Shown here one piece after another: positions 2,900 through 45,423 of a DNA stretch of 64,000 bases; within the stretch, counting starts at the first letter, position 1, and the number at the start of each line of letters is the position of its first letter. The position numbers and the translations under genes are program-made. Source of the DNA: Limonium bicolor (taxonomy: Eukaryota > Streptophyta > Magnoliopsida > Caryophyllales > Plumbaginaceae); contig CM041782.1 of NCBI GenBank assembly GCA_023374045.1, positions 183,414,925-183,478,924 on the forward strand, given 5' to 3'. The notes below the pieces were generated by a model. It had not been told where the DNA came from and did no database searches. It saw only the letters and a program-made list of their open reading frames with translations.

Positions 2900-2909
2900 T
2901 TTATAAAAG
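2900..2909 (+). promoter_or_regulatory. TATA box in Element 1 5' LTR
   Basis: TTTATAAAAG lies about 310 bp upstream of the first candidate splice donor and is followed by a pyrimidine-rich leader (CCTACCTCTCTCCTTC), as in plant core promoters. It lies in a near-palindrome (ATTTGCTTT then AAAGCAAAAT). The same sequence is in the 3' LTR at 25463-25472. In Element 4 of the same family the core reads TTTATTAAAG (minus strand, about 40933-40942) and looks weaker. The transcription start would be near 2930-2940; this is inferred. Confidence 0.6.
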
Positions 2910-3215
2910 CAAAATACCTTATATTAGCCTACCTCTCTCCTTCTTCTTCTCTTCTTCTTCCACGGTTCTCTTCTTCTTTTCCTCTGTTCCAAACCGTCCC
3001 AAGCAGCCTCCATGGTTGCCTCATCTTCAAATGTTCATAACTTACTCATTTTAGCTCCAAATCAAAAACTAAACACATATATCTCTTAGTTAGCTCAAGC
3101 TCTAGCTTTCTATCTTTACAAAATTGGAAAAGCTTCATTTTGGAGCCATGGGAAATCTCCATTGATGTGGGAAAATCAAGTTTGAAGAGCTCATTAGCTT
3201 CTTCATTCTCTTAAG

Positions 3216-3808
3216 GTAAAGAAAATGTAAGAAAAACCAAGTTTCCATCATCTTCCTTATATGGCCGAAAATTCCTTCTCATGGGGACTTGTTTTTATGC
3301 CTTGTTCTAGCTTGATTTATTCACCAAGGACTAGTGGAGGTCCTATTTCATTCAATGCCAAAGTCTATCTTGAGACTTCAAAGGTAATCATCCACTTTTA
3401 TGCCTTAGAACACATTTCTAACCTAGGTTTTCATTCCTTGAGGTTAGTGTATTGTTTAGTGCTCATATGAGTCATTGAATATTGATTAGAACATTGGCAA
3501 GGGAAGTTTAAGTGGTGGCCGATATTCATCCAAGAAGAAGGTCTAAGGAGGAAGTTAAGATAAGCTTGAGAAAACAAGGTAAAATGCTTACCTAATGGTG
3601 GTTTAAGTTTAAAGGAATGAGTTTTAGATAAGTACCAATGTGGCTTAGAGCTTACATTGTGTATTGGGTTATATAACCTAAGAAAAAGAACTTAAACAAG
3701 CTTATGAACTTGTGATTAAGGAGCTAATGAGAATGAGTTAGTAATATAAGTTTAAGGTGGATTTTAAGAACATTATAACTACTATGAAATTGATGGGTGT
3801 ATTTGCAG
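3216..3808 (+). other. Candidate LTR leader intron, Element 1 5' LTR
   Basis: Donor CTTAAG|GTAAAG at 3216 and acceptor TATTTGCAG|GT ending at 3808. Two further donors lie between them: TTCAAAG|GTAATC at 3384 and AACAAG|GTAAAA at 3579. All three donors and the single acceptor recur in order in families 1, 2, 3 and 6, although the surrounding sequence differs. The 3' LTR copy runs 25785-26377 with inner donors at 25953 and 26148. Exon 2 would begin just before the GAAATTCAGTGTTTAAG box. Splicing is inferred from the sites alone. Confidence 0.5.
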
Positions 3809-5016
3809 GTTAAAAGCTTTTATACGTGGGAAATTCAGTGTTTAAGTTTAAGTCATTTAAGGGCCTAAGAGCCATGTCATTTAAGAGCCTTAGTGCTATG
3901 CAATTTAAGATTATTGCAATATATTGAGTATGATGTGAATAAGTTGATTTGGGTGAGAAAATAAGATGAGAAAGGACTTGGTGTGTGTGAGATTATTGTG
4001 TGAGAAAAACAATGCATTTGGGCATGAGAATATACTAGGGGAGCTATGGCGAAATTTGAGTAGAAAATAAGTGTTTAGGTGATGGTGGTGAATTAATATG
4101 ACCTAGGATTTACTAGGAGTCATTATGAAGAATTTGAGTGGAAATGAGTTAACTAAGGAGTTCTTGAGAATGAGAATGACCTAGAATGGTCTATGAGGAA
4201 GTTAGAGTTTAGATGGGTGTATTGAACACACCAAAGTCATGGTATGAGGAGTGGTAAGACTTGTGCAAGAATCTGGATGGAAAGGTGTATAATGCTTTAA
4301 GGTGATTTAGGTATGAACTAGAGAGTAAAACAATGAGAGTTTTGAGAACCTTGTGTAAGGGTGATGATGCTAGTAGTGGACTAATGAGGTTTAGTTTAGA
4401 TGTTAATGAGTGGACTTAGGTGATGGAAGGGAAAGGTGTGGGAGAATGTTGTCAAATGTCAAGGAAAATGTCTGGGAATGTAAAAGAGAGTATGATCATG
4501 AGAATGGTGAATAAGATGCATAAAAGAGGTGGAAATGTCTAAGGAGGGTGTTACATGGTCAGGGTAAATGAAGAACCATGTTAAGGTGTTAAGGTAATGG
4601 AAAACAATGTATAAGTAAGCTCAAGAGTTTAGGAGTGTTGAGTAACAAATGAAAAGAAGAGAAGTTATGCATGGACATGCAAGATGACCTTGGAGGGATT
4701 GAGCAAAGCAAAGATGTAATGTAGTGATGTTAAGGAGGAGCTATATGGGTAGGAAAGAAACACTTTGGTTAGTCGAAGTTTTAGATAAAATGTACAAGTT
4801 GGAAATGTAAGGAAGCATATGACAAGTGTTAGGAATGTTTGTAAGAATTTAGTAAATGTTTGAGAAGATCTTTGGAAGTTGTTTTCGAGAGTTTGGTGGA
4901 AGTTATAAGGTGAGTTTAAGTGCCTAAATGATGTTAGAAGACATTATGAGGGTTTAGGAGAAGTTTGGTGAATATTGGTTAAGTGTTTGAAGGCTTAGAA
5001 AATGAGTGTTTTGCCT

Positions 5017-5280
5017 TGTCCGAACATCCGTCCGGACATGGACGTTCGGACAGGCCCTGTTGCGTGAAAATTTTCAGAGTCTCGACTTGTGTCCGACCTT
5101 GGGAAGTCCGGACACAAGTTCGGACGTGCCTGCTTCTACTTAGGATTTTCCTCGACCCATGTCCGAACTTCCGAAGTCCGGACACATGTTCGGACATGCG
5201 TCTGTTTTCAGTTTTGAGTCTCGACTTGCGTCCGAACTTGGGAAGTCCGGACACAAGTTCGGACATGCCACTGTTTTGGC
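5017..5280 (+). repeat. Snap-back hairpin array in Element 1 LTR
   Basis: Four imperfect units of roughly 60-65 bp, each a long inverted repeat. For example, GTCCGAACTTG pairs with CAAGTTCGGAC over 11 bp around a loop containing AAGTCCGGA, and ATGTCCGAAC pairs with GTTCGGACAT over 10 bp. Spacers contain TCTGTTTTCAG or TCTCGACTTG. The 3' LTR copy is at 27573-27836. Arrays with the same layout but different sequence sit at a similar LTR position in the other families. The overlapping 108- and 129-codon open frames on both strands result from the repeat and are not genes. Confidence 0.85.
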
Positions 5281-6110
5281 CAAAAACCTTGTTTAAGGAT
5301 GGGAAATGATGAGGATAATTAGGTATTGATGTTATAAGGTTGTTTAAGACATGTTTGGTGGGTAACAATGATAATTAAGTGGATGAATAAGTATAAGTGA
5401 TGAGGAGAAGCGATTCACTTAAGATTAAGTTTGTAAGATTAGGTTGTAAGACTTAAGAAGTGTTAGGTTGGGATCATTAAGAGTTAAGTAAGGTAAGTAA
5501 TTTAAGTAAGTTGAATTAAGTTATGTGATTAACAACCTAAAACTGAATGAATGTTTTAGGACTTGGGAATTTGGACTCCGGAAGAGAGTAAGCAACCGAA
5601 CAACCAACGGTGAACGGTACAGTTCTCTTGTGACCTGCTTGCTAACGAGGTGTCCCTCGGCTTGTGTGCTATTTGTTTTTATGTGCTCACTAAACAAGAT
5701 AAAGCATGCAACCGGAATATATTATATCTATTGTATTGTTGTGTGATGTATGAAAACTAACACAACATACCGTGAGAACTTACTAACCAATGTTTAGTAA
5801 GGAATTGAGTGAGACTGAGGAACGCCCCTAATAAGGGACGATATGAACCGAAAGAGGTTAACCAACAAACAGGGTCTTGAGATTACTACTAACTGGAACT
5901 TGAGTGAGGAAACCCGGGACCGATCTCCGGTCATGCATGCTAAGGAAAGGGGGTCGTTATCTATAGCAGATTCGACCTCCGATTAAGGACTTGTCTTCGG
6001 ACTTGTAGCCTAGGGCCGGTTGCCGGCTCAGCTGCGCTGGACTCCCGTCCAGAGTAGGTGGCATTAAGATGGTGCGGTGGGATCACCTAAATCCCAGGTT
6101 CGAATTAAGC

Positions 6111-6345
6111 TACAACCATTCCCTTCCAGAAACGGTTTGTATATTGAGATTAAGTTAAGATTAAGATTAAGGTAAGATTAAGATAAGTTGCAACCATTCC
6201 TTTTTAAAGGATGGTTTGTATTGTTAAGTTCAAGAGTAAGGTAAGGTTAAGATAAGTTGCAACCATTCCTTTTAAAGGATGGTTTGTATTATTAAGATTA
6301 GGATAAGCTACATCCACTCCTTATTAAAGGGTGGTTGTTTCTAAG
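6111..6345 (+). repeat. ACCATTCC hairpin tandem repeats, Element 1 LTR
   Basis: Four units of about 45-55 bp, each with a short inverted repeat (for example AACCATTCC, then a T/A-rich loop, then GGATGGTT) separated by AAGATTAAGATAAG-type spacers. Arms change together between units (AACCATTCC with GGATGGTT; ATCCACTCC with GGGTGGTT). Copies are at 28664-28900 in the 3' LTR. In Element 4 the array is longer (about 37475-37760 and 46010-46300, minus strand). This is a second hairpin array, distinct from the GC-rich one. Confidence 0.75.
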
Positions 6346-6601
6346 ATTAAGATAAGGCTAAGATTGAGGTGAGATAAGGATGGACTAAGATTAAGGGGGA
6401 ACATTACCTAAGGAGTTAAATAATTAACTCTCTAATTGAGGGAACGTATTTAAGTCGTTCATTGTGTGTGAACTTTGATTGTTCATATCTGAGTTGTTGT
6501 TTACTGCACTTACCATTATATTGTGCATCTAATCAACCTCCATGCTATCGACAATTAGTCGTCGTAGCCACGTTAGCTTGGGGGCCATGAGGGGATCGTA
6601 C

Positions 6602-6646
6602 CAGCATTCGTGCTGACCCCCTTTGGGGGCTGTTTTTACTACACAG
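6602..6646 (+). promoter_or_regulatory. Double hairpin plus acceptor-like site, Element 1 LTR
   Basis: CAGCA-TTCG-TGCTG is followed after one base by CCCCC-TTT-GGGGG, then a T-rich tract and ACACAG|GT (AG ends at 6646). The same order occurs in Element 1 3' LTR (29158-29202), Element 2 (12383-12427 and 21301-21345), Element 4 (37163-37209 and 45712-45751, minus), Element 3 (34401-34455, minus) and Element 5b (58126-58169, minus). Loops and some stem bases change while pairing stays. It may be a second splice acceptor or a processing element near the LTR 3' end; function is inferred. Confidence 0.55.
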
Positions 6647-6949
6647 GTGTACATCAGGAGGCAGCCGTCGCAAGAGTAAGAAGAGGATACAAGTGTTAAG
6701 GATTAAGTGTGACCTACGAGTTGTGCATGTACACTCGTATGACAATTGAGTTAGTAAGATGTATTGGTTGTGAGAGGATTGCAAGAAGGATATGTAAATG
6801 GTTAAGGTTGTTGGACTAATGTTCGGTATATTCTGTAGTCAGACCGTGGCAAGGTCCTGGATTGTAAAGAATTCCGCTGTGACATGTTTATATAATATAC
6901 TGTTAAGTTGCGAGACCACATCTGGATTGAGTTGGGGTGTTACAAAAAG

Positions 6950-6961
6950 TGGTATCAGAGC
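6950..6961 (+). other. Primer-binding site, initiator tRNA-Met, Element 1
   Basis: TGGTATCAGAGC begins five bases after the LTR end. It is complementary to the 3' end of plant initiator tRNA-Met, the usual primer for plant chromoviruses and many LARDs. The site runs directly into an inverted repeat at 6955-6976 (TCAGAGCGTA, then GT, then its exact complement), so seven bases of the PBS would lie in one arm of an RNA hairpin. Confidence 0.9.
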
Positions 6962-7148
6962 GTAGTTACGCTCTGAAGACAAGGAATTACCGAACTTAGG
7001 TGAATACTGAGGTTGAGTTTGAGTTATGGGTTAAGGGTTGAGTGATAGAGTGAGAGGTGCGTTAGTTAGGACTTCCCGGTATTTACCGGATATCCATAGT
7101 ACCTAGACCCGCCCTCCACATCCCTAACCCTGAATACGTGGAACAAAT

Positions 7149-7195
7149 GCCAGAGAGAAGAAAGCCTTCTCTTACTCGGGGAAACCCGATCTGGC
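7149..7195 (+). other. Three-way-junction RNA candidate, Element 1 leader
   Basis: The closing helix GCCAG/CTGGC encloses hairpin AGAGAAG-AAAGC-CTTCTCT and hairpin TCGGG-GAAA-CCCGA, the latter with a GNRA tetraloop. Homologues: 12986-13032 (Element 2, loop AATA, closing helix reduced), 62448-62494 (Element 6, loop AATA) and 45195-45241 (Element 4, minus, loop GAAA). It lies about 200 nt after the PBS, where retroelement packaging or dimerisation signals commonly sit. The fold was found by eye. Confidence 0.5.
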
Positions 7196-10022
7196 AGTTA
7201 GCTAACAGTAAGCAATACGAGAAACAATTTGTTGTACAACAGTTATGGAGAACTTGGAGGTTTTTTTTTAATGGAGCGCAATAGTGGAACAGGCGCTACC
7301 TATGGAATTCTATCAATAAGGGAACGGTAATTACCGGCAACATGGGTCGACATGCTACGCAGTCGAAATAACCCGCAATACCAATGATAAGGAAAGCACT
7401 ACGGGTGCAATAGAAAGGAAAAAGGAAGCGACATGAGTACCGGACAGTGGACCGAAGGAGCATAACAGCAGGATAATACCAAGCATGAGGATTGAGATTA
7501 CTGGAAAGTCCAGTTAGAAACGGGAACTCCAAACCCCATATAATGAGAAAGGTTACAAACCTGGCCGACACAACGCGAACAACGGTGGAAACACATGCAA
7601 ATTGTATACCGAAATAAGACTACGATGTAGTGCTTAGAGGAGAGTCATTACTGAGTAACCACAACAAAATGTGTGGAGACAAGAGCGAGGATTAAGACAT
7701 AAGAAAATATTAAGGGATTCCCTCAGAAAGAGGAACACCCTAATAAATGACAGTACTGTCAAACTACAAGGAAACTGCCGGATGGTCGGTTATCCAAAAT
7801 AAGAGATTATTGAAGGAGTCCCGAGGACTACCAATTACATGGAAATTAGAAGGGAGTATCACTACCGATGTACCTTGTACCAATAACCCATCCTGCATGG
7901 CGCACTTGCCATAGCAAGTGCTACCACGGTTAAGCCACGCGAAAAGCCATCAAGGCGAAATAAGAGAACGCTACAGTTGTAGTATATATTAATACCTGAT
8001 TGTAAATCTATAAGAACAGGAAAAAAAAAAGACCTTGGAAAGGCCCGACGGCCTGACCATGATGAGATGAGGTGACACACCAGTCAGCCGGGAGCGGAAC
8101 TCAGACAAAGTACTAAACCATATAAATATTTGCAACGGTATAACCCACTACAACGAAAACGGGATAAGACTCCCAGAATGACCACTAAGGATACCAATAA
8201 CAACATTCTACAATGAAGATGTTGGAAAACCCAGAAAATAAGGGTAAAAGAAATGAACATAAGCTATAACCTACTAAGGATTAAAAATGTATAATCCCGA
8301 CAGAGGGAAGCTCAGCGGACTACCCACACAGAGCGGGTATAGTCGAGCCAAATAACTGATGAATGACAGCTGATACTGTTTATTTAACTCATTAACACCC
8401 AAGTATGATTGATCATCAACGGGTGGCATAGTCAACGGAAGTTGAATGAAGCGTTGAGATGGAAGTATAAGATGACTGGATGATATCCAACTTGGACACT
8501 TTAAGGCAAACGCCTAATACGAACTTGTCTTTATATGCTAAAAGACAGAGGTTTAATAAAATGACAGTATTGTCAAAGACATTAAGTAACCTCAGATCAC
8601 CTGAACAACTTCCCTAGTAGGAAGCAGGATGCAGCAACTTATCATGAAATCCGATACTACATTTAGTATGTAACCTAACGGTGGATAGTGCTCAAAGAAC
8701 CAAAATCTTATAGGGATGACCTGCAAATGAGTAAGAGTACAAATAATGAACTGAGACATTAAGCATTAAGAGCCTACGAGCCAAGGATGTTAACCACATC
8801 AGAGCCCGAGGCGCAGTAAGTTATAAGAGAGCTTGTTTAAGCCACGAAGGGACTACAATTTGTAGATATGAACGGTTACCAAACCTATAACTTAGATTGG
8901 GAAGAACATTACCAAGAAAGGGTACCAATGAGGATATTGAAATACCCCAAACCTTAATATGTTAATTAACTATGTAATTATAATTTTCTAAGGCTAATTA
9001 AGTCCTTAAGACCATTAGTGAAGAAACAAAAACTAAAAAGAAAAATAAAACGCATAAATGTCACAAAACGTAAAAGTGTGTGTTAAATGATTATAGTGAG
9101 TATGTAACCTTAACTGAGGTCCAAAAAGGATTCCTAGGACTTATTTAGTCATTAGGAACATGTGGGGAAAATTCCCGAAGTAAACGGACCCAAATAGTGG
9201 AGGTAAAAGCACAAACGAGGCTTAAACACGTTTTTCGAGGAAACCGAAAAACGTGACTTAAAACAGTTAAAATGGACTTGTATAAATTATAGTTGATTTT
9301 ATAACTATAATTATACACTAATTTAAAGTCTAAGAATTTTTAGAAACAAAAAAAAATATTCCGGAAACCGGACCCGGACTGTTAAAACTGACAGTTCGGG
9401 AATTAACGGGTGTTATCTGCTAATGACCAAGTGCCTCTCTCACATTGTAAAAAAAATTCAAATCTGGTCCCCCTCTCTTGTATCCCACGTGAGAGTCCCT
9501 CTCACTCACACATCTCATTCTACTTTACTCATAAAAATACAAAAAACAACAAAAAGTAAAAAGTGCTACTTACTTTATTTCCTCTCTCTCTCACACACTC
9601 TCTTTCCTCTATGCTTGTGTGGGTTACGAATTCTTCACTTCCCAGCCCCCTCTCTTGCTGTGTATATGGACTAAAAACAAAAGTAATAAAAACACAAAAC
9701 ATTACTTACTCTCTCTCACATTTCTCTCTCTCCCATTCTCTTCTTCTCACGATTTTTTTTCCCCCCAAGCTCTCTTTCTCTGCTCCTTCTCCTACAATGG
9801 CGATTTCTTGAGCCACAAAGAGCCTCATCTTGCTCCTTCTTGTTCTACCCTCAAACCAACTCCAAATCAAAATATTTTTAAACCAAAATACTCCTCTCAT
9901 CTTGGGGATTATTTTCCACCTTTTAAAATCTCAAAACTCCATACTTCATTTCCATGGGTGTACCACATCTTGAAGAGAAAACCTCATGATCTTGAAGCCA
10001 ATCAACTCCTTGATGGCCTAAG

Positions 10023-10459
10023 GTAAGAAAGAACTCAAAAATCCATTCATTCTCCTATTTATATAGTGGCCGATTTTTGGTGTGCTAAACACCCTTGTTT
10101 TCCTCTTCATTCAAGCTTGTTAAATCTTCAAGAAGTGTTGGAGCTAGCCCAAAATCCATTACCAAAAACTTCACTTTGAAGTAGAAGGTAATTCCCTCCT
10201 ATGGTGTTTCAAATATTTACTAAGTTCTAGGGTTTATGGGATAATGTTCATGAACCCTCAATACTCATTGTGTTCATTTTGGCATGGTCATTAGCGTAGC
10301 AATTAATTCCGTTGAATATCGAGTGAGGAGCAAGAAGTTAAGAGAAAGAGGTTTTGAAAAGAAAAAAAAAAACCCAAGGTAATTAACTTACCTTAAACTA
10401 GTGTGGGATCTATAAATGTGTTTATGTTTGAGCAAAATAAATGTTCAGTGAAAATGCAG
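10023..10459 (+). other. Candidate LTR leader intron, Element 2 5' LTR
   Basis: Donor GGCCTAAG|GTAAGA at 10023, close to the plant consensus; inner donors AGAAG|GTAATT at 10188 and CCAAG|GTAATT at 10379; acceptor AAAATGCAG|GT ending at 10459. In the 3' LTR the positions are 18947, 19112, 19299 and 19379. Spacing between donors (about 165-190 bp) matches the other families although the sequence between them does not. Confidence 0.5.
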
Positions 10460-10850
10460 GTGTTGCGAATAATATGAGGAAATTCAGTGTTTAATTTAAT
10501 GTTGTTTAAGGGCCTAAGAGCCAAGCTTTTAAGAGTTATGCATATTGGGTGCTATTGTGTGGAAATGATGAGATTTAAGTGTGGTTTAGTGTTTTAGGAT
10601 GAGTTGTTGATTGGAGTGTTTTTGGAGGGCTAAATAATGTGTGGGAATATGATAAAATTATGGGGAGGTCATGTCAAAATTTGTGCAGGAATTTAATGGT
10701 TTAGATGCATTTCTAGGTGGGATGTTTAGAGAGGGTTTAAGGGTGTCAAGAAGGTGTTAAAACATGTGGGAAAACATGTGAAATGATTAGAAAAAAAATT
10801 GGGTTCAATTTGGAGTTCAAAATGAGAAGAAAAACACTTTGAAAATTGCC

Positions 10851-11080
10851 CTCTGTTGTGGACCGCCCCTAGGGACCGCCCCTGTGGGGAGGTCCATACC
10901 AGAAACAAAAAAAAAAAAAAAATTTCGTCGGGGCCTCTGTCGTGGACCGCCCCTAGGGACCGCCCCTGTGGGGAGGTCCGGGCAAAAAAAAAAAAAAAAA
11001 CGTCGGAGCCTCTGTCATGGACCGCCCCTAGGGACCGCCCCTGTGGGGAGGTCCGGACCAGAAACAAAAAAAAAAAAAAA
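10851..11080 (+). repeat. Hairpin/poly-A array, Element 2 LTR
   Basis: Three tandem units of about 80 bp. Each begins CTCTGT and carries the GC-rich inverted repeat GGACCGCCCC ... CCCCTGTGGGG-A-GGTCC, and each ends in an A-run of 14-19 bases. The 3' LTR copy is at 19771-20002 with different A-run lengths. Open frames of 60-113 codons on both strands are by-products. It occupies the same LTR position as the snap-back arrays of families 1, 3, 4 and 6, and Element 6 carries a related sequence (60841-60966). Confidence 0.88.
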
Positions 11081-12382
11081 TTAAAATTTAAGTAAGGTAA
11101 TGAGGCTTATGTAGTAAACCCTAGTGTGTATTATGAGGATAATCAAGTGTAAGTTTTAGGGTGAAAACTCGTTGTGTAAACATGTAAACCACTTAGTAAA
11201 CCGAGAGTTCATGAAAGGTAATTAACTGACGTTATTAATTATGTATAGGAACTACCTTCGGTGGAACTCGAACTCAACAAGGACCGAGGTATGGTTTTCT
11301 TGCAACCTGTGTCCTACCGGATTACACCGGCTTGTATGCCAATGTGTTTTTCTGTGTGTTTGCCACCTTGCAAGATAAAGCATGAAATGAGTTTACAGTA
11401 ATTCATTATTGTGGCGTAATTAATTCCGATACCGCTTAACCTTAGCTATGTGTTAAATAATAGTTAACCGACTTTAGGTTCACATAAGAGATCGGTATTC
11501 GGAATAAACGTCCCAACCCATGGGAACGTTCTAACTACGGCTATCCGTGCGTTAGTGTATGATGTATGTGACTTGTTGGATATGTTGTTGTTGTTATTGG
11601 ATACAATTATTCATGTTTGTTAAAAAGGGATATTACTCCCCATATGTGTCTAACCGAGTTAGTAACACTATGTGATGTATGTATGTGGTAAGTTCCATAA
11701 GGGAACCTCTAACTAATAAGTATATGTTATGTATGGAGAGGAATCCGGTTGTTCCGGTCGCGCGCGTATGTTTGGGAGTTAATATATATATGTGAATTAA
11801 CTCCCATCCTGTTATGTTAAGGGTTGTTTTCCTTCATTGGATTTCGACCTCCCATTAGCTTAGCCAAAGCTTACCTACCCGACCTCCAAATCGGGCTAGG
11901 AGGGAAATTATGTACAATGTTGTTAGGGTGTTGACGCCTATGTTGCCTCGACTCCCTCTCTGTTATGTTCTGGTTGTTTTTCTTCTTGGATTACAACCAC
12001 CCACAAGCTTAACCAAGGCTTACCTACCTCATCACTATTGGAGTTAGGGGGAAATTATGTATGTTGTGTACGGTCCTATACGAGGCCGCCACTCAAGTAA
12101 GGAAATGTATGTATGTTGTGCTCGGGCTTATATTCCCCCGGCACTCCCTAAAAGAAGTTCATGTACTCTAAGAAGAGCGAAATTAAGTTGTGTATGTTAT
12201 AAAGTGAAGTGTGTGTTGTTATGTTGGGTGTGCTAACCTTGTGTATGTATTCATTGATGGATGTTGCTTGTAAGCATGATGTGTGTACGAGTTTGTGCAT
12301 GTTTGAAATAAATCAATCGCATGCTAAGATGACAAATAGTTGTGCGTGGCCCGGTAGCATGCGGGCTGCGGGATTACCATAC

Positions 12383-12427
12383 CAGCAAAGGTGCTGACCC
12401 CCTCTGGGGGCCCCCATTACTCTACAG
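12383..12427 (+). promoter_or_regulatory. Double hairpin plus acceptor-like site, Element 2 LTR
   Basis: CAGCA-AAGG-TGCTG, one base, CCCCC-TCT-GGGGG, a pyrimidine-containing tract, then TCTACAG|GTAC with the AG ending at 12427. Same order as at 6602 in Element 1 but with different loops, which supports conservation of the pairing. The 3' LTR copy begins at 21301. Confidence 0.5.
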
Positions 12428-12669
12428 GTACGAAGGAGCTGCAAGCCGTTCGAGAGTAGGACAGGTAGTTGTTGCACCTGGGTGGTCTTTCAAATTGAGA
12501 GTGTATTATAGGTGTAGTAAGACCGAATTTGTTATCGGCATTAGTTTGTAAATACTCGGTACAGTTGTAATGTAAGTGTATAATGAATGTTGAACATGGA
12601 ACGGGATTAATGTGTAGTTGCTCGGGAATTTAGTCCATCAGACCGGTACAATGTATGTATGTTAGCCTT

Positions 12670-12784
12670 GTTAGCCACGTGGGTGGCTAACGGCGTGTAA
12701 CACCAAAGAGTTAAGTGATGTTGTGAGTTATGAATTCCGCTGCGATATGTTGTTAAATGTGTTGTTAGTAGTTGGGGTGTTACA
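12670..12784 (+). promoter_or_regulatory. U5 hairpin and terminal inverted repeat, Element 2 LTR
   Basis: GTTAGCCA-CGTGGG-TGGCTAAC (12670-12691) is followed by TGTAACACC (12696-12704), an inverted copy of the LTR terminus GGTGTTACA (12776-12784), giving a possible 70-nt-loop stem. The hairpin recurs at 16-37, 21588-21609, 34134-34155 (minus) and 57752-57771 (minus), where A-T and G-C pairs swap in both arms. Element 6 has TGTAACACC at 62157-62165 but a shortened hairpin. Confidence 0.5.
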
Positions 12785-12789
12785 AAAAG

Positions 12790-12801
12790 TGGTATCAGAG
12801 C
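12790..12801 (+). other. Primer-binding site, initiator tRNA-Met, Element 2
   Basis: TGGTATCAGAGC, five bases after the LTR end and identical to Element 1. The following bases complete an inverted repeat (12795-12816) with one mismatched pair relative to the perfect versions in Elements 1 and 6. Confidence 0.9.
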
Positions 12802-14132
12802 GAAGTATCGCTCCGATGACTGAAATACCGAGCTTAGGAAGTGCCGAGTTAAGAGTTTAGTACTTTGGGTTAAGGGTTGAGTGATAGCGTGAGAAGTACG
12901 CTAGTTAGGGAACACCAGTGTGTACTGGATACCTACAGTATCCATCCCGCCCTCCACAAACCTTATTATATAACTTGGAAAGAACGACAGAGAGATGGAA
13001 GTCCTCTCTTACTCGGGAATACCCGATCTGGCTGTTATTGAATGTCCTTATAAGTTCGGGGAACCTGTCATACGGTCAAGCCCGAAAGGTGTGGATCCCG
13101 AAGACGGTCTCCATTTTAACAATGTCTGCCGTATGGAATAGCGAAAAGTGAAGGATCTTATGCATAAGAAAATGGAATTTCCAGCACCCTGGGTCGACAT
13201 GCGAAGCAGTCGAGGACAACCAGCTTACAAGCACTAAGCGTGCAAACGTGGAGAAGTGAAATAGTAGAAACCCGAGACGAGTGTCTACGGGACTACAATG
13301 TTGACTAACACACCAACGGTACACCAACCGAGCAAAGAACTGCGACGTAGTACGAGGAGGATACGATACTAAGTAAAAAGGGGTCTCCCAGAATGGGAAA
13401 CACCCTAGTTAATGGTTATCAGGTGAAGACAGAGAGAACTACCCAAGGAATTGTTGTTAAGACGATAAGATCAAGCAAGGGCCAGCAAGGCCACAGATGT
13501 TAAAGCGGGTCAAAGCAGTACCGCAACCGATGTGTATTGAACCAGTAGCCAGTCAGCATGGCGCACTTGCCAAGGCAAGTGCTGCTACAACAAGGCTGGC
13601 GGCAAATTATTAGCAACTATAAAGTACTTAGTAAAGTACCATGAAGTAAAGTGAGATCATCATAACTGTGGAAAGGCTTAGCAGCCTGACCTCTGTAATT
13701 GGAAACACACCAGTCAGCAAGAAGCTAGACTTGGTTAAGGCGAGAAAATGTTGTGAAACCATGAGAATTTTCTTTCAAACTTAAATTCATTTTCAAAACC
13801 TTTTTCAAAACCAAATTTTCTTTCAAACCCAATCTATTTTAAATTCTTCTTCTTTTAAAACCAGACCAGAAGACCTACACCGGCCTCAGTGCCCCATGGT
13901 AGGTAAGTTATACCCAGTTACTTTTAAACAACCGGATGGAAACCGGTAAACCCAGGGGTAAACAACCCGAGGGAATGGAGTGAGTTCATAATAATACAAC
14001 AGTGGATACACTTCCCTTGATTAAGTTCGGGAAGCATGGAATGCATATTATCATAGGATAATATAAGAGGAGTTGACAACAGAATACTTCACCTAGGCGT
14101 GTGACGGACACTACGAGTATACCAACTGTAAT

Positions 14133-14227
14133 GTGGGACGACCGCACTCCGATAGGAGCTTGTGGGCCTGACAGACCTACTTATGGGTTAGTCAGGTAAG
14201 TAGCAATGTATCAGTAGGATACCCCAC
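14133..14227 (+). other. 95-nt multibranched structured-RNA candidate, Element 2
   Basis: Closing helix GTGGG/CCCAC; branch 1 GCA-CTCC-GATA-GGAG-CT-TGT; branch 2 CCTGAC...GTCAGG with inner stem CCTA-CTTA-TGGG; branch 3 GTATC-AGTAG-GATAC. Copies in Element 1 (22835-22928), Element 4 (43375-43468, minus) and Element 6 (63544-63638) keep every helix with paired changes. It is preceded by a conserved small hairpin GTGT-GACGG-ACAC. Possible roles are packaging, dimerisation or export in an element lacking proteins; this is inference. Confidence 0.55.
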
Positions 14228-16310
14228 GTATGTATACGAGTGGAGTCTAGAACACGGGAAGTAGTCGACTCCATACGGTCCGAAGTAAAAGTCAAGCAAG
14301 AGCAATGGATTACATCGAATCGTTGAAATAAAGGAACCCAGTTAAGTTAAGGAAGACTAAAGGAATTAGTAAGTGTATTTTAAGGAAATGTTTAAGGGTG
14401 AACAAGTGCGAAGGCACTGATTAGCAAGTAAGGACATGGAATATGTCATAAGGAACCTGAAGGACGAACATATAGCTGGAGTAAGTACCCAGCCTAAATA
14501 TGGCGAGGCAGATGCCTACTATGATACGTTAATGTGCAATGATTGGGATGAGACTCCCGAAGTGATCACTTGAACTAAGGGAATATCAATCTCATTGGAA
14601 ATGACATTTAACCCAGCCAAGAACGCAGGGCGATGTAGCTAATGAAACGTACTCATAAGTGCGAGCCGGATATAATGGCAGGACCTAGTAACACCCAGGA
14701 ACTATCCTTAAAATGGTGTTTGGGTCAACAATGGTTGAACGAATAACGTGGCAGAAACGCAAGGGTTGAGACTAACACCCAGTTTGAGCATAAGACGTCA
14801 AGAGAAAGTCTGACATCCTTGAAGGGGCATCCCATGAAAGGAATAAATCATGGAGCCCAATACAACCTATAAACCGTGTATTATGTACGGGAAGTAAATG
14901 TGTGTGAACCTACAATGAGCAGAGCTCGAGGCCATAGGGCTTATAAGCCACAAGTAAAATGTGTTAAGGAAATTTTATTGATTACGAAAGTTTATGTTAT
15001 ATATAAGTAAGTAAAGTGGATAACGAACCACTGCTTTAAGAGTGGGGATACCTCTTGATATGGGAGACCGCAACAGCGGTAGTTATGTGAACTAAGTTCA
15101 GGGAATGTGTTAGGAGTTGACCATGTTGCTATTACCTAAGAAGGATGTGAGTAGGAATAAATCGAAAAGAAGTATTTGTACCAGTTGTGGAGATCAGATG
15201 AGTAAAAAGTCAAATAGCAACCACCATAGGTGTGGGATGCTAAATGGGTAATGAACTACGCTCAAGGAGCACAAAGACTTGAATAATAGCGTATTTAGCA
15301 ACCAGCCGAATAGATGGCAAAACACAGTGTAGTGGCAGAAGCTAATATAATAGCGGATGCAGTGTAAGTTAATGTTGTACAATGAGTAAGAGCACGGTGT
15401 GCAGTAAGCGACCGTTGTGTAATTATTGATAAACAACTGTATGGCAAATAAGACCAGTTATGAGTGAAACTCAATGGACATACAAGTAAGTGGTGATGAT
15501 ACGCAGACTGGGCAACAAGCCAATAGTCGGTACTATATGATAAGGAAAACAGTGTGAACTCCTATCGCTACCGCATAAGAGATTTACCGTCAAGAGTTTA
15601 CGCCTCTGCACTCTGTATGACTGAGTGTTTTGGTATTGCTCTTGCGCGGTAATGATCGAGTGTGATAGCTAGGAAGTTTGGGCAATGTCAATTGTGATGG
15701 AGGAGCAAGGTTTATGGTGTGATAAAACCGATGCATAAGAGAAGCACGGTTGTACCAACCAAAGGACACTTGGTTGGCATAAGTGACTACAGTAACACGA
15801 TTATTAAACATCGGTATGGAATATACCTCAAGTGTGAAGAAATCAAGTAAGTCATTGTGAAATACAGTAGTAAACTATCATGGAAATGAATAGAAAGTTT
15901 GTAACTCACCGAATTCGCTCACAGTAAGACATACCACGCGTTGGTTGAGAAACCGTTATTACCAAGATAAAGGTGATAATCGGGGATGTATACCACAGTA
16001 AGAATAATGTATGGGGCAAACTAAGCTCTAAGTGGTCAGAGTTGCGCAGCAGAAACTAGCGAGCCAGCAATTCAAGTGTTAAATGTGTGTAGTGAACATG
16101 AGTGGATGGCTAATTACTAACGCCTATAGCCCCACAGGCCAGAACCAAAACCGGTTAAGAGTTAAAGTAAACTCTAAAGAGAATTCTTGGTTAGGGACTA
16201 AACCGCCAATATGGCTAAGATCCTCAAACCAGAACACAGTGTATAATAAACCGCGTGGAGATAAAACACTTCACGACGGTAGGCCGTTATAAACCAGTGA
16301 TTAAGTGATT

Positions 16311-16345
16311 GATTACGTGGGCGTAATCCCTTTTAAGGGGGGTAG
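16311..16345 (+). other. Central polypurine tract and hairpin, Element 2
   Basis: Hairpin GATTACG-TGGG-CGTAATC (16311-16328) is followed by TTTTAAGGGGGGTAGA, the same sequence as the terminal PPT (17847-17862), 1.5 kb upstream of it. It is also present in Elements 1 and 4. In some retroelements such as lentiviruses and Ty1, a central PPT primes a second plus strand; that role here is inferred from identity to the 3' PPT. Confidence 0.6.
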
Positions 16346-17528
16346 AGTGCAGATTCACTTAGTGTCTATTACCGTACAAGTGTACATGAACTATGGTGTG
16401 CATAGCACAAAATAATTTGTTTTGATGATTGGTGGTGTGCCACATAAACATACGCATTCATTCATGGTTAATTGTGGTAATTGCACACAGAAGATGCGAA
16501 TACCATTGTGATAAGTGTGTTGTTGTGTTAAAGGATGTGTGTGAAAGTATGTATAAGGGAGTAGAACACTCCTGGGGAACTAAAACCCCGACAATATATT
16601 CATATGATACATTATATTTTGATAAAAAAAATACATATAGATACATGTATATATATGGGTTGTGATTTATGAAGAGTATGAAACCGACATAGAACCTAGT
16701 GAGAATTAAACTCCCTAGGTAACTTGATTTGAAGTAAATCTGGAAGATGATTGATAGACAGAGTGCTATCCCTTGGAGATGTAATGATTACGACTAGAAG
16801 GATTAAAGATAGAAAATGGTATATGTTTGAATTAGCTGTTGTTTGAAAATGAAGTGGGAGGTGGGAGGAACTTGATTATCATGAGATCAAGGGAAGCCAA
16901 ACACAAATTGGGGTGGAAAGATAGTTCAACTCGATGCTGATCACATTAGGGTTGGATGATTCTCGAAACTCCCTATAAGTGGTCACAAATAATCACATCA
17001 AGAATAAGATGCAGTTAACAATAATTGGACTTGGAGTTGTATTGAATTTTCAAAAGAATTTTAAAAGTTGGGTTTCAAATTCTCAATTGGTATTTTCAAG
17101 ACATCAATTAATATTTTAAGATTCTTAAACGGTATTTTCAAAGGAAGGACTACTTTATGTGACCTTGTAAAGGATTTTCAACTTGTATCCTTCCAATAAA
17201 GGATTTCATTATACTTAACCTCATAGAGGGTATTTTCCTACTACTTGCTCACGAGCTGAGGACGTATGAGCCTTTGTCTTAGGACCGGTGACATGAGAAG
17301 TATATTTTAAAGATGTATGCAATTGTTTTGATCTCCCAAAGGAACGGGGACCAGAGTGTCCATCGCGACCGGTTCTGCGGGATCACAGTGTATATGTACT
17401 CTACATGGGTCTCAAACCATGAAGAGATGGAAAAGGAATTTCTGGTTGATATACATGCTATGACATGTTGTGTGGTATGTGTAATAATTATTATTTTGGA
17501 CCTTGAGTCCTAATGTGATTGAATTCCG

Positions 17529-17800
17529 GAAGTGTTATGTTATCAAGACCTATGTGTCTAAAGGATGTCGTGTTATCAAGACCACGAGTCTAAATGTTGT
17601 TATGTTACCCAGACCAAGAGTCAAAGGGTTGTTATACATGTGCAAATGTTGTTAAGGTAGCCGGATCATCAAGTCCGAGATTACTATGTAAGTATGTTAT
17701 ATATATGGATGTGGATGTGTTACCCGGACCGTCGAGTCCGAGGTTGTAATGTAAAGTATGGTTGTTATGGAAGTTTATGTTACAAGTAATCCCGGTGTCT
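17529..17800 (+). repeat. Degenerate short tandem repeats before the Element 2 PPT
   Basis: Five or six degenerate units of about 40-55 bp built around TGTTAT or TGTTACC followed by AGACC, a few bases, then GAGTC (for example TTACCCAGACCAAGAGTC and TTACCCGGACCGTCGAGTCC). The GGACC/GAGTCC pair could form small stems. They lie between the conserved GGACCGGTGACATG block and the PPT. No such array is visible in Elements 1 and 4. Confidence 0.5.
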
Positions 17801-17825
17801 AATTCAAATGATGCTAGGGAAGTGT

Positions 17826-17862
17826 GAACTTCGAGGACGAAGTTCTTTTAAGGGGGGTAGAT
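17826..17862 (+). other. PPT and upstream hairpin, Element 2
   Basis: GAACTTCG-AGGA-CGAAGTTC (17826-17845) is followed directly by TTTTAAGGGGGGTAGAT and the 3' LTR. The purine tract primes plus-strand synthesis. The motif closely resembles the 3' end of Tekay/Del-type plant chromoviruses as I know them, supporting a chromovirus origin. The hairpin stem is maintained with compensating changes in Elements 1, 4 and 5. Confidence 0.85.
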
Positions 17863-20800
17863 TGAAATACCCCAAACCTTAATATTTAATTAACTATGTA
17901 ATTATAATTTTCTAAGGCTAATTAAGTCCTTAAGACCATTAGTGAAGAAACAAAAACTAAAAAGAAAAATAAAACGCATAAATGTCACAAAACGTAAAGT
18001 GTGTGTTAAATGATTATAGTGAGTATGTAACCTTAACTGAGGTCCAAAAAGGATTCCTAGGACTTATTTAGTCATTAGGAACATGTGGGGAAAATTCCCG
18101 AAGTAAACGGACCCAAATAGTGGAGGTAAAAGCACAAACGAGGCTTAAAACACGTTTTTCGAGGAAACCGAAAAACGTGACTTAAAACAGTTAAAATGGA
18201 CTTGTATAAATTATAGTTGATTTTATAACTATAATTATACACTAATTTAAAGTCTAAGAAATTTTAGAAACAAAAAAAAAATATTCCGGAAACCGGACCC
18301 GGACTGTTAAAACTGACAGTTCGGGAATTAACGGGTGTTATCTGCTAATGACCAAGTGCCTCTCTCACATTGTAAAAAAAAAATTCAAATCTGGTCCCCC
18401 TCTCTTGTATCCCACGTGAGAGTCCCTCTCACTCACACATCTCATTCTACTTTACTCATAAAAATACAAAAAACAACAAAAAGTAAAAAGTGCTACTTAC
18501 TTTATTTCCTCTCTCTCTCTCACACTCTCTTTCCTCTATGCTTGTGTGGGTTACGAATTCTTCACTTCCCAGCCCCCTCTCTTGCTGTGTATATGGACTA
18601 AAAACAAAAGTAATAAAAACACAAAACATTACTTACTCTCTCTCACATTTCTCTTCTCCCATTCCTTCTTCTCACGATTTTTTTCCCCCCAAGCTCTCTT
18701 TCTCTGCTCCTTCTCCTACAATGGCGATTTCTTGAGCCACAAAGAGCCTCATCTTGCTCCTTCTTGTTCTACCCTCAAACCAACTCCAAATCAAAATATT
18801 TTTACACCAAAATACTCCTCTCATCTTGGGGATTATTTTCCACCTTTTAAAATCTCAAAACTCCATACTTCATTTCCATGGGTGTACCACATCTTGAAGA
18901 GAAAACCTCATGATCTTGAAGCCAATCAACTCCTTGATGGCCTAAGGTAAGAAAGAACTCAAAAATCCATTCATTCTCCTATTTATATAGTGGCCGATTT
19001 TTGGTGTGCTAAACACCCTTGTTTTCCTCTTCATTCAAGCTTGTTAAATCTTCAAGAAGTGTTGGAGCTAGCCCAAAATCCATTACCAAAAACTTCACTT
19101 TGAAGTAGAAGGTAATTCCCTCCTATGGTGTTTCAAATATTTACTAAGTTCTAGGGTTTATGGGATAATGTTCATGAACCCTCAATACTCATTGTGTTCA
19201 TTTTGGCATGGTCATTAGCGTAGCAATTAATTCCGTTGAATATCGATTGAGAGCAAGAAGTTAAGAGAAAGAGGTTTTGAAAAAAAAAAAAACCCAAGGT
19301 AATTAACTTACCTTAAACTAGTGTGGGATCTATAAATGTGTTTATGTTTGAGCAAAATAAATGTTCAGTGAAAATGCAGGTGTTGCGAATAATATGAGGA
19401 AATTCAGTGTTTAATTTAATGTTGTTTAAGGGCCTAAGAGCCAAGCTTTTAAGAGTTGTGCATATTGGGTGCTATTGTGTGGAAATGATGAGATTTAAGT
19501 GTGGTTTAGTGTTTTAGGATGAGTTGTTGATTGGAGTGTTTTTGGAGGGCTAAATAATGTGTGGGAATATGATAAAATTATGGGGAGGTCATGTCAAAAT
19601 TTGTGCAGGAATTTAATGGTTTAGATGCATTTCTAGGTGGGATGTTTAGAGAGGGTTTAAGGGTGTCAAGAAGGTGTTAAAACATGTGGGAAAACATGTG
19701 AAATGATTAGAAAAAAAATTGGGTTCAATTTGGAGTTCAAAATGAGAAGAAAAACACTTTGAAAATTGCCCTCTATTGTGGACCGCCCCTAGGGACCGCC
19801 CCTGTGGGGAGGTCCATACCAGAAACAAAAAAAAAAAAAAAAATTTCGTCGGGGCCTCTGTCGTGGACCGCCCCTAGGGACCGCCCCTGTGGGGAGGTCC
19901 GGGAAAAAAAAAAAAAAAAAAAAACGTCGGAGCCTCTGTCATGGACCGCCCCTAGGGACCGCCCCTGTGGGGAGGTCCGGACCAGAAACAAAAAAAAAAA
20001 AATTAAATTTAAGTAAGGTAATGAGGCTTATGTAGTAAACCCTAGTGTGTATTATGAGGATAATTAAGTGTAAGTTTTAGGGTGAAAACTCGTTGTGTAA
20101 ACATGTAAACCACTTAGTAAACCGAGAGTTCATGAAAGGTAATTAACCGACGTTATTAATTATGTATAGGAACTACCTTCGGTGGAACTCGAACTCAACA
20201 AGGACCGAGGTATGGTTTTCTTGCAACCTGTGTCCTACCGGATTACACCGGCTTGTATGCCAATGTGTTTTTCTGTGTGTTTGCCACCTTGCAAGATAAA
20301 GCATGAAATGAGTTTACAGTAATTCATTATTGTGGCGTAATTAATTCCGATACCGCTTAACCTTAGTTATGTGTTAAATAATAGTTAACCGACTTTAGGT
20401 TCACATAAGAGATCGGTATTCGGAATAAACGTCCCAACCCATGGGAACGTTCTAACTACGGCTATCCGTGTTAGTGTTGTGTATTATGAGTGATGTATGT
20501 GACTTGTTGGATATGTTGTTGTTACTGGATACAATTATTCATGTTTGTTAAAAAGGGATATTACTCCCCATATGTGTCTAACCGAGTTAGTAACACTATG
20601 TGATGTATGTATGTGGTAAGTTCCATAAGGGAACCTCTAACTAATAAGTATATGTTATGTATGGAGAGGAATCCGGTTGTTCCGGTCGCGCGTATGTTTG
20701 GGAGTTAATATATATATGTGAATTAACTCCCATCCTGTTATGTTAGGGTTGTTTTCCTTCATTGGATTTCGACCTCCCATTAGCTTAGCCAAAGCTTACC

Positions 20801-21702
20801 TACCCGACCTCCACATCGGGCTAGGAGGGAAATTATGTACAATGTTGTTAGGGTGTGACGCCTATGTTGCCTCGACTCCCTCTTGTTATGTTCTGGTTGT
20901 TTTCTTCTTGGATTACAACCACCCACAAGCTTAACCAAGGCTTACCTACCTCATCACTATTGGAGTTAGGGGGAAATTATGTATGTTGTGAGTCCTATAC
21001 GAGGCCGCCACTCAAGTAAGGAAATGTATGTATGTTGTGCTCGGGCTTATATTCCCCCGGCACTCCCTAAAAGAAGTTCATGTACTCTAAGAAGAGCGAA
21101 ATTAAGTTGTGTATGTTATAAAGTGAAGTGGTGTTGTTATGTTGGGTGTGCTAACCTTGTGTATGTATTCATTGATGGATGTTGCTTGTAAGCATGATGT
21201 GTGTACGAGTTTGTGCATGTTTGAAATAAATCAATCGCATGCTAAGATGACAAATAGTTGTGCGTGGCCTGGTAGCATGCGGGCTGCGGGATTACCATAC
21301 CAGCAAAGGTGCTGACCCCCTCTGGGGGCCCCCATTACTCTACAGGTACGAAGGAGCTGCAAGCCGTTCGAGAGTAGGACAGGTAGTTGTTGCACCTGGG
21401 TGGTCTTTCAAATTGAGAGTGTATTATAGGTGTAGTAAGACCGAATTTGTTATCGGCATTAGTTTGTAAATACTCGGTACAATTGTAATGTAAGTGTATA
21501 ATGAATGTTGAACATGGAACGGGATTAATGTGTAGTTGCTCGGGAATTTAGTCCATCAGACCGGTACAATGTATGTATGTTAGCCTTGTTAGCCACGTGG
21601 GTGGCTAACGGCGTGTAACACCAAAGAGTTAAGTGATGTTGTGAGTTATGAATTCCGCTGCGATATGTTGTTAAATGTGTTGTTAGTAGTTGGGGTGTTA
21701 CA
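17863..21702 (+). repeat. 3' LTR of Element 2
   Basis: 3,840 bp. Same features as the 5' copy: intron sites 18947-19379, hairpin array 19771-20002, double hairpin 21301-21328, U5 hairpin 21588-21609. Between about 20470 and 21140 it differs from the 5' LTR by a cluster of one- to three-base deletions rather than substitutions. The terminal CA is followed by the TSD GATAT. Confidence 0.93.
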
Positions 21703-22834
21703 GATATTGAGATAATGCTAAGGACAGGAGCGGAGAACGAACCATGCCTTTTAGGGTGGGGATACCTCTCCTTGTTGTGAGGCCATGAGTGGGAATGAAC
21801 CCCTCAAAAGGGCTTTCACATATTAGAGATAAAATATACTTTATTTAGAAAATGGAAACTATGAACCTTGAGATTACCTTAGAACATACCAGATACACTT
21901 GAGTAATAAGGAAGGTTACACGGATAGACCCACATCCAACACCCAGGATGTAAGAATTAGTAATGGTCAGAGATAAACATTGAGATTGCACATTATGACA
22001 CGTCAAGTGGCCAATGCTCAGAAGAGCTTGTGATTCAGTGGATGACTTCTTCAGTGACCAGTTAAACTACATGGTAGATAACATCACTAAGGATGAAAGA
22101 AAGCGAAAGAAATTAGCCTACTTACGAATCTGAGATTGGAGCAAAACATCTTCATATCAAGAGTCAACTATTTTACAACACGGTACGACAACCGCCTATA
22201 CCGGAATGAAAGAACTCCCAGTGTGTTTACACCAAGAAGGGATTGAGTATAAGGTAAGACATTAGAATAAGTGAATAAGAGGTTGCACCATCAATGGGCA
22301 ACATGGTAAGGGCCAACTACCACGGTAGTAGTGGTCGTGAGTACAATAGTTAGAAAGGTGGATTAAGTCATGGTGCGCGGTAAGGCGACCATTATGAATG
22401 AGCCGTCAAATATTGACACTGAGGCAATTAGATTTATGAGTTAAGACCAGTATAAGTAAGAAAATAAGATGGTAGACGAACTGAGCATTGATGCCAGTAG
22501 TCTGGACCTAGTTAGGTAAGATTTTACAGGAAGCACACTACCCATTCCTTAAGGAACTGGAAGTTCATTCCTAGTAGCATAAATATGAGGAACAAGATAA
22601 GAGGCTCTACGGAAAGAGACCTCAATTTTTAAGAGACCAAATCAGTGCGGAATACAGAAAGGAGCTGGAGCATACCATAACCAAGAACACAGTAAATGGA
22701 CTTCCCTTGATTAACTTCAAGAAGAACAATAAATGTTATTATGGAACGATGAAAGAGGAGATCGACAACAGAATACTTCATAATTAGCAATAGCTAAACG
22801 TGTGATGGACACTATGAGTTTACTAAAACAAGAC

Positions 22835-22928
22835 GTGGGACGACTGCACCCCACAGGGGCTTGCAGGCCTGACACGCTCATTTATGAGTTAGTTGGGTAA
22901 GTAGTAATGTACCAGTAAGGTACCCCAT
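22835..22928 (+). other. Multibranched structured-RNA candidate, Element 1
   Basis: Homologue of 14133-14227. Closing GTGGG/CCCAT (one G-U pair); branch 1 CCCC-ACA-GGGG; branch 2 CCTGAC...GTTGGG (two G-U pairs) with inner CTCA-TTTA-TGAG; branch 3 GTACC-AGTAA-GGTAC. Compared with Element 2, branch 1, the inner stem of branch 2 and branch 3 each show a double change that keeps pairing. Confidence 0.55.
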
Positions 22929-23650
22929 GCATGTAGACGAGTGGTGTAAGGAACACGGGAGGTAGTCGACTCCGTACCACCGACAACGACGCAAGATCAC
23001 ACAAGAGCAGCTACTACCACAGACAATCGAGGAGAAGAATTCAGTTGAATCAGCAACACAGAGGAACCAGAGAACAGATAATTAAGGACTATGAAGTGCG
23101 AAAAGCACGGAATGTTAAGTACAGACATTGGATATGTCTTAAGATGTACGGAATTAAGACTGTAAAGCGCGATATGCACTAAACAGTAGTTTCAGACTAA
23201 GAATCATCCTCAGACCAAAGGTCAGTTGGGGAGAACGATTTAGACATTCGAGAAAACACTAAGAGTATGAACATAAGATCTTCAAGGAGAATGGATAGAC
23301 GAGTTACAACTCATTAAGGCCGTGTATATATAAAGATAACACGTGACCATTGAGGGACCTTTAGTGCTAAACCATAAGCACGCAAGAGAAAGATATCCGA
23401 TACTGTAAAAAGGATAAGTGAGGCAAATAAACCTAAAACAATCAGAGTCACGCAGCGGAAGCTAGCAGACCACTACCTTTGAGATTAGACCAAACTGAGT
23501 TAAGGAAACGGTATAAGTACCGTTAAGAATCCTCGATACAGAGACTAAGTCATTTCTGATTGAATTATAACTAAGATAGATGACGTGGAAGCTTGAATGC
23601 TTGGTGAGAATTAGACATCTTGAACTTATGTTCAAAGATGATGTGACGTC

Positions 23651-23686
23651 GATTACGTGGGCGTAATCCATTTTAAGGGGGGTAGA
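23651..23686 (+). other. Central polypurine tract and hairpin, Element 1
   Basis: GATTACG-TGGG-CGTAATC hairpin, then TTTTAAGGGGGGTAGA, about 1.15 kb upstream of the 3' PPT. The purine core is identical to the terminal PPT. The Element 4 copy is at 42686-42721 (minus). Confidence 0.6.
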
Positions 23687-24805
23687 GCGAAAACCGCTTA
23701 GCGTATGTTGTGTACTGAGTACATAAACTACGGTGTGCATAGCACCAAATAATTTGAGATTGTTTTACACAAACATTTTGAGATAAATCATGGTTATTGC
23801 ACACAGAAGATGTGAATGCCATACATATTAAGTACCTGTCTTGTTAACTCCGGTGTGAGTACAAGTTAAGAGAATTAAGGAAAAGAATTAAGGAGACTTA
23901 AGGAATATGAATATATGAGGTAAGAGTCGATATGAGACTATGTGGGAGATAAGAATAAGATAACATTATGAGATACAATTTGATATGATTATGAGTTAGG
24001 AAATAGTAATGCTATGTGGTATGAGACAGTGGAAGTTGGTATGGGACAGTTATAGAACTTAGTAGGAATTTAAGTCTTGAGGTAATTACTAAGAGATGAA
24101 TTGGGAATGTTTGATGGACTGAGTCCACACTTTGGAGATGTATTGATTATGATTAGAAGAACTAAAAAGATAGAAAATTGGACATTAGTGAATTATTTGG
24201 ATGTTGAAAATGACGTGGGAGGTGGAACTTGATTTTCTAGGGATCAAGGGAAACCGAACACAAATTGGAGTGGAAGGGTGGTTCTACACTGATGCTGATC
24301 ACATCAGGGTAGGATTATTCCTGAAACTCCCTACCAGTGGTCACAATTAAATCACACTAAGGATAGAGGCCTTAGGATAAAATGAAATTGGAGTTGCTTG
24401 TATTTTTAATTAGAGGAATTATTCCTCACATGACCTCGTAAAAAGGATTACCTTTTTACTGAGTCTCGCCCATGAAGTCGAGGACGCACGAGCCTTTGTC
24501 TTCGGACCGGTGACATGGGGAGAGCAGAGTGTTTTGTATTCTGGCCCATGGTAACGAGGACAAATGAGCCATTGTCTACGGACCGGTGACATGGGAGAAT
24601 ACGTTGGAAATTATGTGAATGTTTCAATCATAAAAAGAAACAAAAAGAATTTTGAGTGCTATACATGCTTAAGCATGTTGTGTGATATTTAAGTATAAGA
24701 ATATGGCGGATCCAATGATCCAATGAGATTAAGTATACATAAGTATGATCTATATGATCTAAGGAATGAGGTAAGACATGTATTCTAATAAGAAAAGATG
24801 CATGG

Positions 24806-24842
24806 GAACTTTGGGGACAAAGTTCTTTTAAGGGGGGTAGAT
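24806..24842 (+). other. PPT and upstream hairpin, Element 1
   Basis: GAACTTTG-GGGA-CAAAGTTC (24806-24825), then TTTTAAGGGGGGTAGAT. Relative to Element 2, a C-G pair in the stem is replaced by T-A in both arms. Confidence 0.85.
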
Positions 24843-34041: not shown

Positions 34042-34400
34042 TGTAACGCCCCTACTACAACAATACACTTAATAATCATTCGCAGCGGTAAACATACACC
34101 ATCACATTACTCAACTCGTTGGTGTTACACGCCGTTAGCCACCCACGTGGCTAACAAGGCTAATACATATACATTGTATCGGTCTGATGGACCAGATTCC
34201 CGAGCAACTACACAATACAACCCTTATTCCATTTCCCACAATTATTATACACATACATTCCCACTGTACCGAGTATTTTTAAACCAATGCCGACAACAAA
34301 TTCGGTCTTACTACACCTACAGTACATACTCAATTTAAATGGCTACCCATGTACAATCAGCTACCCCGTCCTACTCTCGAACGGCTTCCAGCTCCTTGTA

Positions 34401-45408: not shown

Positions 45409-45419
45409 GCTCTGATACA
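45409..45419 (-). other. Altered primer-binding site, Element 4
   Basis: Minus strand TGTATCAGAGC, one G fewer than the TGGTATCAGAGC of Elements 1, 2 and 6. It is embedded in a longer inverted repeat (45392-45418; 10-bp arms GTATCAGAGC/GCTCTGATAC). The missing base might be a true mutation or one of the many single-base deletions in this stretch. Confidence 0.7.
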
Positions 45420-45423
45420 CTTT

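Follow-up and report, generated by a model that had tools for sequence, protein, structure and literature searches.

How do long terminal repeat (LTR) retrotransposons that lack recognisable proteins come to be mobilised? The question is raised by a 64,000-nucleotide (nt) stretch of Limonium bicolor DNA (contig CM041782.1, positions 183,414,925 to 183,478,924; hereafter the window), which self-comparison and LTR ends resolve into nested LTR elements, X, Y, Z and D. To our knowledge, how protein-less LTR elements are chosen for packaging in plants is poorly known. Each of the four elements carries in its internal region, 1.2-1.9 kb 3' of the 5' LTR, a conserved unit of about 205 nt. A preliminary description of the window had proposed a functional, multibranched RNA of 94-95 nt, and its four copies (14133-14227, 22835-22928, 43375-43468 minus, 63544-63638) lie where it placed them; that module proved to be real, being the junction tip of the larger unit, but incomplete. 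The domain is present in four of four elements bearing a primer-binding site (PBS), and a model scan of the window found four copies only, none within an LTR:

14069-14272, plus strand, RNA domain of element Y, the reference copy, its edges coinciding with repeat family D4
22757-22973, plus strand, RNA domain of element X
43330-43546, minus strand, RNA domain of element Z
63480-63683, plus strand, RNA domain of element D

The predicted architecture, in the coordinates of the Y copy, comprises nested helices (P0 to P0e) below a four-way junction:

14069-14077, plus strand, 5' strand of P0, the outermost helix (9 base pairs (bp); partner 14264-14272; one bulged A in X and Z)
14264-14272, plus strand, 3' strand of P0 (GTCGACTCC)
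14078-14084, plus strand, AACAGAA, predicted single-stranded, invariant in all four copies
14085-14090, plus strand, 5' strand of P0b (partner 14258-14263)
14091-14097, plus strand, internal loop; X and Z have a 12-nt insertion, predicted to form a small hairpin of its own
14098-14256, plus strand, core, exactly 159 nt long in all four copies
14098-14102/14252-14256, plus strand, P0c
14108-14114/14240-14246, plus strand, P0d
14115-14116/14238-14239, plus strand, invariant GA/GA internal loop
14117-14122/14232-14237, plus strand, P0e
14132-14228, plus strand, four-way junction tip, the earlier module plus one pair
14132-14137/14223-14228, plus strand, P1
14138-14141, plus strand, invariant linker ACGA
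14142-14165, plus strand, arm 1
14166-14197, plus strand, arm 2
14198-14207, plus strand, linker AAGTAGYAAT
14208-14222, plus strand, arm 3

Every copy, folded alone, gives the same four-way junction, in agreement with the closing helix and three branches of the preliminary description. The covariation it reported was likewise recovered by RNAalifold, which found 32 pairs in the 97 columns of the module, none broken and five changed on both sides. The sole broken cell of the 64-pair structure lies in P0b of copy Z, whose own fold lacks P0b. The 64-pair alignment holds one hand-placed gap (GGAG-TTGAC against GGAGATCGAC). The lone RNAalifold pair 14105/14249, C-A in Y and kept in the other three copies, was left out of the 49- and 64-pair counts, and columns 55/190 (A-U in X/Z, A-A in Y/D) were also excluded. 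The letters of the arm-2 loop (CUUA/UUUA) could pair with UAAG at the start of the adjoining linker in all four copies; by reasoning only, the loop seems unable to reach beyond the 12-bp arm to form this pseudoknot.

Chance was assessed by a permutation test, run on the unedited alignment, in which the structure was predicted from a single copy and the patterns of change were exchanged at random between columns sharing a base. Taking Y as reference gave 14 broken cells against 32.6 expected (0 of 20,000 permutations as low), and 12 two-sided changes that kept pairing against 3.7 expected (p 0.002). With X, Z or D as reference, 18, 17 and 15 cells were broken against 41.0, 36.8 and 34.3 expected (0, 1 and 1 of 20,000), and when only paired columns were permuted, counts as low arose in 1, 0, 0 and 0 of 20,000 (Y, X, Z and D). 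As controls, 76 segments were each given 3,000 permutations, 70 of them outside the domain and 6 overlapping it in the Y-D comparison. Among the 70, p fell below 0.01 in 3 with all columns (lowest 0.003) and in 4 with paired columns only (lowest 0.0007); 57 of these 70 hold just two sequences and so have less power. In the 159-nt core, where 196 of 196 cells are paired, none of 500 shuffles reached the observed number of paired cells, the number of cells with two-sided changes or the covariation score. The column-shuffle z of the domain, -7.4, is to be read with care: across the 204 of 238 control folds (both strands) the mean was -2.1 (sd 1.7, minimum -7.0, 32 of 204 below -4), and because its null is thus off-centre this z was dropped as the main statistic.

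The structure is specific to the sense strand. Relative to shuffles, the complement strands fold more poorly (z -1.9, -0.9 and -0.7 for Y, X and D), and the G-U changes are consistent with sense RNA, not with the opposite strand. Moreover, the domain changes more slowly than its surroundings. Between Y and D, 10 of 204 domain sites are different, against 70 of 305 in the near flanks (p 1e-8) and 185 of 1021 further 5'. For X and Z the differences number 6 in 217 domain sites and 103 in 1421 sites beyond it (p 0.012), with none in the 94 sites of the tip (p 0.002). Invariant columns make up 104 of the 128 paired and 54 of the 90 unpaired ones, the longer invariant unpaired parts being AACAGAA, ACGA and nine of the ten bases of AAGTAGYAAT; the three hairpin loops keep 2 of 4, 3 of 4 and 4 of 5 bases. 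All three sense frames contain stops in all four copies, which, with nothing above the Pfam cut-off, rules out a coding remnant. Judged from sequence, these data support an RNA structure that is non-coding and strand-specific, covaries and is maintained by purifying selection, carried by LTR elements in which no proteins are recognisable. A functional RNA, as the preliminary description had it, is in keeping with this; translation control, one of the roles it offered, or an internal ribosome entry site, is unlikely because the scanned internal regions showed no recognisable protein-coding open reading frame (ORF).

The domain corresponded to no known RNA family: Rfam 15 gave no match above its gathering threshold anywhere in the window, and only two chance-level matches (E 2.3 and 3.8) to 13983-14300. 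ARAGORN reported no tRNA, and a tRNA-like identity was rejected, the cloverleaf-like layout being one of topology only. Domain patterns of 21 bases, and of 23 bases with gaps, had no match in viral and prokaryote contigs, as expected since the DNA is probably plant. Among the titles and abstract openings listed from the open-licence literature, none describes such a domain for a large retrotransposon derivative (LARD).

What, then, are the elements that carry it?

2282-6944 and 24843-29499, plus strand, LTRs of element X, target duplication GCTGT
6945-24842, plus strand, internal region of X, interrupted by 7537-8647 and by Y
8938-12784 and 17863-21702, plus strand, LTRs of element Y, 5-bp target duplication GATAT
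12785-17862, plus strand, internal region of Y, which sits inside X
45424-50093 (5' LTR) and 36871-41557 (3' LTR), minus strand, LTRs of element Z
41558-45423, minus strand, internal region of Z
58381-62245, plus strand, 5' LTR of element D
62246-64000, plus strand, internal region of D, cut by the window end

As in LARDs, LTRs of about 4 kb surround a long internal region. The seven LTRs start with TGAAATACCCC and finish with GGGGTGTTACA. The PBS TGGTATCAGAGC, which we take to match initiator tRNA-Met, stands 3' of the 5' LTR in three elements (X, Y and D), with no other exact occurrence, the version in Z being altered; the polypurine tract (PPT) AAGGGGGGTAGAT lies upstream of the 3' LTR in X, Y and Z. 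Target duplications of five bases flank X and Y, and the Z flanks agree at four of five, so that PBS, PPT and target-site duplication, features of LARDs, are all found here. The LTR pairs are nearly identical (divergence K 0.0082 for X, 0.0060 for Y, 0.0073 for Z) and the insertions are therefore recent, about 0.2-0.3 million years old at a substitution rate of 1.3e-8 per site and year. No Pfam match was found in either the Y or the Z internal region over all six frames; the three sense frames scanned for D and, within X, for 21704-24841 gave just two weak matches, both below cut-off. In the regions scanned there is thus no recognised gag or pol coding capacity, as the preliminary description had claimed for the host elements. 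LARDs such as Sukkula of Triticeae share the long LTRs, PBS, PPT and long internal region without recognised gag/pol, a likeness of anatomy rather than one drawn from sequence comparison with Sukkula or Triticeae LARDs; they differ in that the titles and abstract openings listed mention for them neither a named RNA domain nor a covariation test nor a closed model of a four-way junction.

Because X, Y and Z inserted recently without recognisable proteins, they presumably used those of another element, and a conserved internal RNA structure in such trans-dependent elements would therefore best be read as a mark for uptake by Gag. Packaging signals (psi) of retroviruses and LTR elements are multi-helix parts of the genomic RNA with conserved single-stranded patches, downstream of the PBS. 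The present domain resembles them in being predicted to be multi-helix, in its conserved single-stranded patches and in lying downstream of the PBS, and it is a structured RNA of the internal region conserved by covariation, in four copies only; it differs in lying 1.2-1.9 kb inside, not near the PBS, and its binding by Gag is putative. Our leading, if tentative, interpretation, which we would place just short of an even chance, is that the domain of about 205 nt is a packaging signal for the Gag of a related autonomous LTR element, enabling particle uptake, reverse transcription and integration. The element RNA would fold in the cell into the predicted four-armed shape; Gag, or nucleocapsid, of the autonomous element would read the invariant patches AACAGAA, ACGA and AAGTAGYAAT; and the RNA would thereby be loaded into virus-like particles, reverse-transcribed and integrated. 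A plant precedent is BARE2, a non-autonomous LTR element that is packaged without a Gag of its own, which its authors consider consistent with conserved dimerization and packaging signals (PMC3735527). BARE2 resembles the present elements in that uptake into particles, but it is a Copia element and retains an ORF that may be translatable (PMC3735527); the likeness is drawn without comparing the sequences of the signals.

The partner is likely to be a Ty3/gypsy element with Del/Tekay-like LTR ends. According to PMC4029996, the U5 att of Del type A has GGG at -8 to -10 (section 14), and in Del of sorghum and maize the U3 att seen most often is TGTAACACCC, with bases 3, 6, 9 and 10 the most conserved. 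The LTR 3' end of our elements, GGGGTGTTACA, has GGG at -8 to -10, as in type A U5, and its reverse complement begins with TGTAACACCC.

Several points weigh against a packaging signal. The 5' LTR end, TGAAATACCC, departs from the Del U3 sequence so described at bases 3 and 6 (2 of 10), and since these are two conserved bases the elements are not filed as Del. No autonomous partner was recognised within the window. The copies number only four, from one window and two clades, and covariation comes mainly from differences between the pair Y/D and the pair X/Z; the Y-D comparison by itself is unconvincing (lowest permutation p 0.046 in the six domain-overlapping segments), so that the effect depends on setting one pair against the other. 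In the core, the 6 pairs changed on both sides were reached by 67 of 500 partner shuffles, and the number of further pair types by 166 of 500. Retroviral packaging signals usually lie near the 5' end, and this domain is 1.2-1.9 kb inside. Roles in packaging, export, stability or reverse transcription would fit the evidence alike, although packaging or trans-mobilisation appears to suit the element anatomy best.

A bolder extension of the packaging signal, possible but somewhat doubtful, is that the domain acts as a portable mobilisation tag, in the form of a compact four-way-junction RNA for packaging by the Gag of one autonomous lineage, kept by selection across LARD families with otherwise largely dissimilar internal sequence. 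If true, the tag would allow the non-autonomous elements mobilised by a given Gag to be predicted. Since the domain has a base-pair model and clear edges and has been tested against chance by permutation, the packaging question becomes testable, and a sequence-plus-structure model would help find LARD families and autonomous partners in plant genomes.

The same structural and selection evidence would serve a conserved element that is recognised by host proteins, not by Gag, and that helps a long RNA without ORFs to leave the nucleus, remain stable or avoid splicing. A multi-kilobase RNA without recognised ORFs would have to exit the nucleus and escape decay, and a location far from the 5' end suits export as well as packaging; we nevertheless regard this role as rather unlikely, and Rfam, which includes some known transport elements, gave no match. 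It is improbable that the domain acts after packaging, in RNA dimerisation, primer placement or template switching during reverse transcription. The other strongly kept sequences are indeed replication signals (PBS, PPT, LTR ends), and the self-complementary octamer AGTCGACT is invariant in all four copies, as are several predicted single-stranded patches; the octamer, however, overlaps the P0 3' strand and is not in a loop, none of the three hairpin loops is palindromic, and the primer site is more than 1.2 kb away. Still less credible is a sequence that has no part in the element's own cycle and is kept at the DNA level, as a foldback precursor of small RNAs or as a non-coding RNA captured from the host: the foldback is long and the copies only four, but the G-U changes suit sense RNA and not the other strand, the invariant parts include linkers and no 21-nt duplex, change is slower than in the flanks for both Y-D and X-Z, and Rfam gave no match. 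Absence of function, as a chance fold in related repeats or a coding remnant, is very improbable and already disfavoured, for although the column-shuffle z alone is indecisive and Y versus D alone not significant, the single-sequence-structure permutation reached at most 1 in 20,000 against control minima of 0.003 (all columns) and 0.0007 (paired columns), and the three frames are stopped in every copy.

Other structured stretches were seen in the window. The lowest control z (-7.0) belongs to an LTR hairpin at 2499-2600, the LTRs aligned there being those of X, Z and D plus a fourth. An LTR 3' stretch common to Y and another LTR (12290-12460 and 34370-34545 minus) had permutation p 0.003-0.007 with all columns and down to 0.0007 with paired columns; 28 of its 33 consensus pairs are invariable. 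A second conserved island, close to the 3' end of the internal region (16760-17053 in Y, 24123-24409 in X, 41993-42280 minus in Z), is 75-80% identical between families with several kept hairpins, and one segment of it gave p 0.009 (all columns) and 0.004 (paired columns). Its consensus fold has 68 pairs, 3 with two-sided changes and 8 with a broken or gapped cell; it is possibly a second RNA domain. A 2.1-kb repeat (96%) adjoins LTR ends at 141-2282 and 31884-34024 and holds a 221-codon stop-to-stop frame (33441-34106 minus), for which a protein search with ORF 33444-34106 gave no match. In all four elements the 3' part of the PBS, CAGAGC, has a near-complement (CGCTCTG or similar) no more than a few bases downstream, making a small hairpin possible at the primer site (6950-6980, 12790-12820, 45385-45420 minus, 62251-62280). 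An inverted repeat lies upstream of the PPT at 24800-24842 in X (GAACTTTGGGGACAAAGTTC) and at 57543-57590 minus in an element at 57.5 kb (GACTTCGGGACGAAGTC), with parts of it in Y and Z. Finally, GC-rich tandem hairpin units, GTGGACCGCCCC...GGGGAGGTCC with variants, occur in LTRs at 10825-11080 and 19745-20010 (Y) and 60809-60982 (D), with three copies in each Y LTR and two in the D LTR.
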